Assembly: GCF_023148685.1 (NCBI RefSeq)
Contig: NZ_JAHXNL010000022.1
Span: 1-43,301 of the forward strand
From: Georgenia sp. EYE_87
Lineage (GTDB): Bacteria > Actinomycetota > Actinomycetes > Actinomycetales > Actinomycetaceae
DNA: 43,301 nucleotides
Direction: 5' to 3'
Shown: piece by piece, positions 4,232 to 5,507 of the stretch
Numbering within the stretch: the stretch's first letter is position 1
Layout: each line of letters begins with the position of its first letter
Program-made: the position numbers and the translations under genes
The notes under the pieces: generated by a model
Database searches by the model: none
What the model saw: the letters and a program-made list of their open reading frames with translations, nothing else
Told to the model about the DNA's origin: nothing

Positions 4232-4257
4232 GGAATGGACCGGGCGGGCTCGCGGTT
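4232..4257 (+). promoter_or_regulatory. SigR-type promoter (GGAAT-N18-GTT)
   Basis: GGAAT at 4232-4236 and GTT (GTTG) at 4255-4257 are separated by exactly 18 nt, matching the established SigR/SigH consensus of actinobacteria. It is placed for autoregulation of sigR. The predicted start site (about 4264-4266) falls just before an in-frame ATG at 4267. Confidence 0.8.
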
Positions 4258-4354
4258 GTACCCGGCATGACCAGCCCGACCCTCGTCCTGCACGCGACCG
4301 CGCCACCCGCCCCGGCAGCCTTGGGCACCGCGGGACCGGAGGGCGGACCCGGGT

Positions 4355-4360
4355 TAGGCT
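4355..4360 (+). promoter_or_regulatory. Proximal -10 hexamer of sigR
   Basis: TAGGCT ends 8 nt before the ATG at 4369, as expected for a leaderless housekeeping transcript. It gives sigR a second, basal promoter beside the distal SigR-type one. Confidence 0.45.
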
Positions 4361-4368
4361 CGTGGGTG

Positions 4369-4989
4369 ATGAGCGAGACCCACGAGGGCGACCTCGACCG
4401 CACTCCCGACGGCGAGACGGGCGCCGAGCGGGCCGAACGTTTCGAGCGCGACGCGCTGCCGTACCTGGACCAGCTGTACGGCGCCGCGATGCGCATGACG
4501 CGCAACCCCGCCGACGCCGAGGACCTCGTCCAGGAGACGTTCGCCAAGGCGTTCGCCTCCTTCCACCAGTACCGACCGGGCACGAACCTGAAGGCGTGGC
4601 TGTACCGGATCCTGACGAACACCTTCATCAACTCGTACCGGAAGAAGCAGCGCGAGCCGCAGCAGTCGGACGCCGAGCAGGTCGAGGACTGGCAGATCCA
4701 CCGCGCCGCCTCCCACACCTCCACCGGGCTGCGCTCGGCCGAGGCGGAGGCCATGGACCTCCTGCCCGACTCGGAGATCAAGCGCGCGATGAACGAGCTG
4801 CCCGAGGACTTCCGCATCGCGGTGTACCTCGCGGACGTCGAGGGCTTCGCCTACAAGGAGATCGCGGACATCATGGGCACGCCGATCGGGACGGTGATGT
4901 CCCGGCTGCACCGCGGGCGGCGGCAGCTGCGCGAGCTCCTGGTCGACCATGCCCGCGACATGGGGATCCGGACGGAGGCCAAGGCATGA
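4369..4989 (+). CDS. sigR: RNA polymerase sigma factor SigR/SigH (ECF, thiol-oxidative stress)
   Basis: ECF sigma factor for disulfide stress. Sequence shows region 2 ([49 protein letters not shown]) and region 4 ([42 protein letters not shown]), 206 residues from the ATG at 4369. The pattern is that of the SigR/SigH group rather than SigE. Its stop overlaps the start of the gene for its anti-sigma factor. The frame stays open far upstream, and an in-frame ATG at 4267 would add 34 residues, directly at the predicted start of the SigR-type transcript. Two promoters are therefore likely: basal leaderless and autoregulated. Confidence 0.93.
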
Positions 4990-5432: not shown

Positions 5433-5507
5433 ATGAGCAAGCGCGGTCGCAAGCGCCGGTCCCGCAAGGGCAGTGCCGCCAACCACGGCAAGCGCCCCAA
5501 CGCCTGA
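5433..5507 (+). CDS. 50S ribosomal protein bL37 (24 residues)
   Basis: A 24-codon gene starting ATG with GGGAGA 7 nt upstream. The product (MSKRGRKRRSRKG... ending NHGKRPNA) is almost entirely basic and matches the small actinobacterial large-subunit protein bL37 first seen in mycobacterial ribosome structures. The KRGRK start and the ANHGKRPNA end are the recognisable parts. It is easily missed because of length. A strong hairpin follows 30 nt after the stop. A location just after sigR-rsrA is consistent with conserved actinobacterial synteny. Confidence 0.9.
   Translation: MSKRGRKRRSRKGSAANHGKRPNA

Follow-up and report, generated by a model that had tools for sequence, protein, structure and literature searches.

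RsrA releases the sigma factor SigR under thiol stress, and the sigR-rsrA locus of Georgenia sp. EYE_87 raises the question of whether the SigR made there comes in one form or in two. The original prediction had described, in the window (the whole stretch of 43,301 nucleotides analyzed), a GGAAT-N18-GTT promoter, an in-frame ATG at 4267, and a short-form ATG at 4369 behind TAGGCT. Inspection of the sequence confirmed this layout, which consists of the following features.

4232..4257, + strand: SigR-type promoter p2, GGAAT-N18-GTT (GGAAT at 4232-4236, 18-nt spacer at 4237-4254, GTT at 4255-4257)
4267..4368, + strand: SigR N-terminal extension, 34 codons (long form from the ATG at 4267-4269)
4355..4360, + strand: TAGGCT, likely -10 element of promoter p1 of the short form (conserved TANNNT, 8-nt gap)
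4369..4989, + strand: sigR short form, 206 amino acids, stop codon (4987-4989) included; TIGR02947
4986..5312, + strand: rsrA, anti-sigma factor, ATGA overlap with sigR; TIGR03988

Nine bases lie between the GTT (4255-4257) and ATG 4267, whose frame is in phase with sigR and stays open across 34 codons to the ATG at 4369-4371 and from there to 4987-4989; 8 nt separate TAGGCT (4355-4360) from the short ATG. The long form of SigR scored 357 bits against TIGR02947 (SigH_actino; cut-off, 251.55), and the RsrA-type anti-sigma gene directly downstream scored 86 bits against TIGR03988 (antisig_RsrA; cut-off, 62.5). A profile score above the cut-off, a downstream rsrA, and a GGAAT-N18-GTT regulon were thus all found for SigR (ECF12, SigH_actino) with RsrA. 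Immediately downstream of rsrA is a 24-residue open reading frame, MSKRGRKRRSRKGSAANHGKRPNA (window 5433-5507), which we take to resemble the small ribosomal protein bL37 of actinobacteria. Elsewhere in the window, GGAATCCCCCTACTTGACAGAGCCGTT at 336-374, together with the following 12 bases, was found again in the same genome at C20:470; both copies are near contig starts, and the repeat is perhaps a mobile-element remnant.

An open frame alone is weak evidence for an N-terminal extension, because the G+C content is high and frames stay open by chance; indeed, the sigR frame of the window is open far upstream, to 3823. This is what would be seen if p2 were a plain autoregulatory promoter, SigR were translated from ATG 4369, and the upstream ATG and open frame were by-products of high G+C, a reading that we regard as improbable. 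The open frame was therefore dropped as stand-alone proof in favor of the position of the start and the codon signal. That extensions differ in length by multiples of three was likewise dropped as evidence, since the loci had been picked as in frame.

For the comparison, SigR loci were collected at the level of the genus (9 of 9 genomes matching), the family (182 of 200), the order (270 of 297), and the class (189 of 197), as well as from 12 of 12 individually named genomes and 80 named best hits. The analysis covered part of this collection: the first survey took in 214 loci, which were reduced to 206 distinct ones by dropping 8 duplicates; the class and handle set added 70 loci, one of which (L252) repeats L140, and there were 272 distinct loci overall. 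The loci were chosen non-randomly, as near hits or with roughly one representative for each genus or family; as they also share descent, P values for start offsets overstate their independence. Offsets from the promoter were counted in the 235 of the 272 loci with one exact GGAAT-N18/19-GTT, the 37 loci without an exact GGAAT promoter being left out.

At offset +9 after GTT, ATG or GTG was observed in 102 of these 235 distinct single-promoter actinobacterial sigR loci (101 in frame), against a mean background of 6.6 loci per offset, with a largest value of 20, at offsets +11 to +36. The neighboring offsets yielded 13 (+8) and 15 (+10) loci. Offsets 0 (71 loci) and +7 (24 loci) were raised as well, the former because GTTGTG belongs to the promoter. 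The codons at +9, which follow a predicted transcription start, were 51 ATG and 51 GTG, and there were no TTG or CTG codons. Leaderless starts in mycobacteria have been described as needing nothing more than a 5'-terminal ATG or GTG, which is necessary and sufficient, with TTG and CTG performing poorly (PMC4633059). The +9 codons are as expected of leaderless starts, and at the level of sequence this comparison backs the leaderless reading of ATG 4267 that had been proposed. The in-frame position of 101 of the 102 starts and the missing TTG and CTG codons also argue against an upstream ATG that is a by-product of base composition.

The +9 start was kept with both an 18-nt spacer (73 loci) and a 19-nt spacer (17 loci), which indicates that its position follows the -10 element. 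In the open complex of Mycobacterium tuberculosis sigma-H, as we read its description (PMC6411747), the two T of GTT occupy -10 and -9. Placing the TT of the window's GTT accordingly, the expected +1 is 4266, the base directly ahead of ATG 4267, and we infer that p2 transcription starts there or within 1-2 nt of this ATG; the start codon thus sits within 1-2 nt of the expected +1, much as predicted. Among the loci of the first survey, 112 of the 114 with ATG or GTG at +8 to +10 had it in frame, and a stop before sigR was present in 0 of the 112. The other two, L078 and L157, were left out because the start was out of frame, L157 also having an in-frame GTG at +10; in the class set, the ATG or GTG at +8 to +10 of L282, L309, L311, and L313 did not begin an open frame in phase with sigR. 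Of the 112 long starts, 8 were preceded by a Shine-Dalgarno-like match (5-7 nt), about the background rate. Judged from these positions, the promoter-to-start arrangement at sigR is more than chance.

Codon positions provided a second line of evidence. In 31 close pairs, differences within the extension were distributed over the three codon positions as 122/118/193, whereas upstream of the promoter the distribution, taken from 23 of these pairs, was 35/44/44. In the same 31 pairs, omega of the extension was 0.52 in frame, the other frames gave 1.16 and 1.55, and the SigR body gave 0.07; these values come from a repetition with stricter pairs, the more distant of which were still aligned with several gaps, after a first estimate (0.67 for the sigR frame; 1.13 and 1.47 for the two others) that contained many doubtful pairs. 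The G+C content by codon position across the 112 loci was 0.727/0.724/0.818 in the extension and 0.705/0.715/0.728 upstream. Frame +2 across the extension alone had 24 stops in 4,502 codons (112 loci); the 244 stops of frame +1 were not used as a control, since many of them, uncounted, were attributed to the TAG of TAGGCT. The third-position excess and the omega of 0.52 against 0.07 in the body point to a constraint on the extension, in the form of purifying selection, that is real but weak. A codon-position signal that is seen inside the extension and is missing upstream of the promoter is again at odds with a plain autoregulatory p2.

In the window, 18 of the 34 extension residues are Pro, Ala, or Gly. 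The predicted model has a pLDDT below 50 over residues 1-44 (mean, 65.3; pTM, 0.36; low overall confidence), and the extension is probably disordered. BLASTP against one Streptomyces extension gave no alignment, in line with the claim that the two are unrelated. In 72 non-redundant extensions, Cys was enriched at positions 3-4, with 19 of 144 residues versus 17 of 2,033 from position 5 on, and the position 3 Cys codons in all 112 loci were TGC (13) and TGT (13). Several Streptomyces extensions likewise have a Cys near the start (MGSxxCPxR). The Cys at position 3 or 4 of many relatives might react with thiol oxidants, which would suit an alternative in which both isoforms are made and the tag, rather than serving for degradation, alters RsrA binding, core binding, or the redox response. 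We consider this unlikely, as position 3 of the window's extension is Ser and the extension contains no Cys, and the precedent described for S. coelicolor is one of instability (PMC4921905, PMC5472188).

The short start shows a similar coupling to a promoter element. TANNNT stands at an 8-nt gap before the short ATG in 111 of the 112 loci and is TAGGCT in 94 of the 112, although the short start was located by demanding TANNNT 4-11 nt upstream, which favors finding one. In Streptomyces, AGGAGGTG was observed before the short start in 10 of the 10 loci examined. TAGGCT imposes xTA codons, and CTA and TTA account for 6 of the 889 Leu codons in the counted part of sigR. A Shine-Dalgarno match of 5 nt was found at none of the 112 short starts, so p2 mRNA should yield little short SigR, which is a further point against translation of that mRNA from ATG 4369. 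It is also conceivable that the long form alone is made and that TAGGCT and ATG 4369 do not act as promoter and start; the lack of a clear -35 element ahead of TAGGCT fits this, but the exact 8-nt gap and the recurrence of TAGGCT despite the rare codons it forces make it very unlikely.

The distribution of the extended form varied largely among families. All 9 searched genomes of the window's genus have the promoter-spaced start and the open frame, with extensions of 34 to 61 codons, and the stops or frameshifts in close relatives that would have spoken against the original prediction were thus not encountered in this genus. In the first survey, an in-frame open start at +8 to +10 was present in 112 of 206 loci and missing in 94. 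It was found in 34 of 45 loci of the window's GTDB family and in 17/19, 21/21, 3/3, 2/2, 1/1, and 1/1 loci of six others, while families mostly or wholly without it showed 0/6, 0/6, 2/14, 1/7, 1/5, and 1/4. Named loci without a family code had it in 28 of 72 cases in this survey, and in the class and handle set the 20 of 70 loci with such a start were scattered across many families. It was missing in all 8 loci of family f37 (presumed Streptomyces). The 11 own-family loci without the start fall within L193-L207, and in several of them the frame runs open for no more than 18-37 codons ahead of sigR, which suggests that the extension was lost there. That small-genome relatives of the same family retain the promoters without the extension is a point in favor of an ordinary p2.

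To place p2 among the SigR-type promoters of its own genome, GGAAT-N18/19-GTT was searched in the GGAAT form of the -35; 28 sites were found, versus 4 for a reversed control pattern. The genes behind them include HSP70 (dnaK-type), Clp_N/AAA, rhodanese, DsbA-like, FMN reductase, and PAC2 genes; the Clp_N/AAA protein is presumably ClpB, judged from its N terminus. A DsbA-like gene (L246:1536-2201) has an ATG at +9 and a GNAT gene (L245:1535-1846) an ATG at +8 after a GGAAT-N18-GTT promoter, and both may be leaderless SigR targets; starts at +8 to +10 at 3 of the 28 sites, versus a rough expectation of about 2, are no clear excess alone. A scan for GGAAY-N17-19-GTT at 0 mismatches and for N18 with 1 mismatch in the -35, which can miss weak promoters, found no SigR-type promoter in the 1,500 nt preceding either clpP1P2 or the presumed clpC of this genome. 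The single 1-mismatch match was located inside clpP1, and this consensus scan accordingly did not place these Clp protease genes in the SigR regulon, a result that would also suit a tag with a function other than degradation.

Our preferred reading is that the choice of promoter sets the isoform, with p2 giving long and p1 short SigR; we consider this likely, both proteins being deduced from the DNA. Under stress, SigR-RNA polymerase would initiate at p2, no more than one or two bases from ATG 4267, and translation would begin at this 5'-terminal ATG and produce a 240-residue SigR with a disordered tag of 34 residues. Without stress, the housekeeping polymerase would start at p1 (TAGGCT) and give a second leaderless mRNA from ATG 4369, encoding the 206-residue SigR. 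By analogy with S. coelicolor, the tag would shorten the life of the induced SigR and the long form would act as a transient amplifier; we rate the chances of such instability as about even, and a negative feedback via long SigR would follow the same analogy. A broader proposition is that in many families of Actinomycetia each of the two sigR promoters is fused to its own leaderless start, of which the leadered Streptomyces form is one variant, and that in part of the group Cys at positions 3-4 is a redox-gated degradation signal that makes the induced form thiol sensitive; taken as a whole, this is doubtful.

If the two-isoform reading is true, placing the start point of each promoter on its own in-frame start codon would be a simple bacterial route to two proteins from one gene without leader sequences. 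It would also extend the idea of a sigma-R' feedback from Streptomyces to many actinobacterial families, account for conflicting annotations of the sigR start, and provide a large natural set of tags for comparing degradation signals. SigR isoforms are a known kind of system; neither the leaderless build nor its breadth turned up in the open-access literature, where we found no description of a leaderless sigma-R', although an earlier report elsewhere is possible.

The closest known system is sigma-R/sigma-R' of S. coelicolor with sigRp1 and sigRp2, as described in PMC5472188 and PMC4921905. The window shares with it the sigR-rsrA operon with an ATGA overlap, the placement of an autoregulatory SigR-type promoter ahead of a housekeeping one, and the in-frame start between the two promoters that leads to an N-terminally extended SigR. 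What characterizes sigma-R' at the DNA level, a SigR-dependent promoter upstream of an in-frame extended start, is thus found here from sequence. The extension has 34 residues here versus 55 or 58 in S. coelicolor (PMC5472188, PMC4921905), and the short start, reported as GTC in S. coelicolor (PMC5472188), is ATG in the window. Unlike in those Streptomyces loci for which the upstream ATG could be placed, where it lies at +44 to +59 after GTT, both starts of the window look leaderless. In S. coelicolor, Clp proteases that themselves belong to the SigR regulon are described as degrading the p2 form, sigma-R', which is short-lived, at about 10 min (PMC4921905, PMC5472188). The full loop is not mirrored here, in that clpP1P2 and the presumed clpC lack a SigR-type promoter in our scan, whereas ClpB-like and dnaK-type genes have one. 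The proposed analogy with S. coelicolor therefore stood for the extended frame behind a SigR-type promoter and not for the protease genes, and the original interpretation is, overall, partly supported.

SigH of M. tuberculosis and SigH, with RshA, of Corynebacterium glutamicum are orthologous to the SigR of the window. The spacing of its GGAAT-N18-GTT promoter is that of the M. tuberculosis SigH consensus given as GGAAYR-N17-GTT (PMC4803200). For C. glutamicum sigH, SigA-type promoters with leaders of 22-131 nt have been described (PMC3489674), and the two loci of family f22 (presumed mycobacteria) have no start at +8 to +10. Compared with the leaderless genes of mycobacteria, the predicted leaderless start in the window would decide which of two forms of one protein is made.
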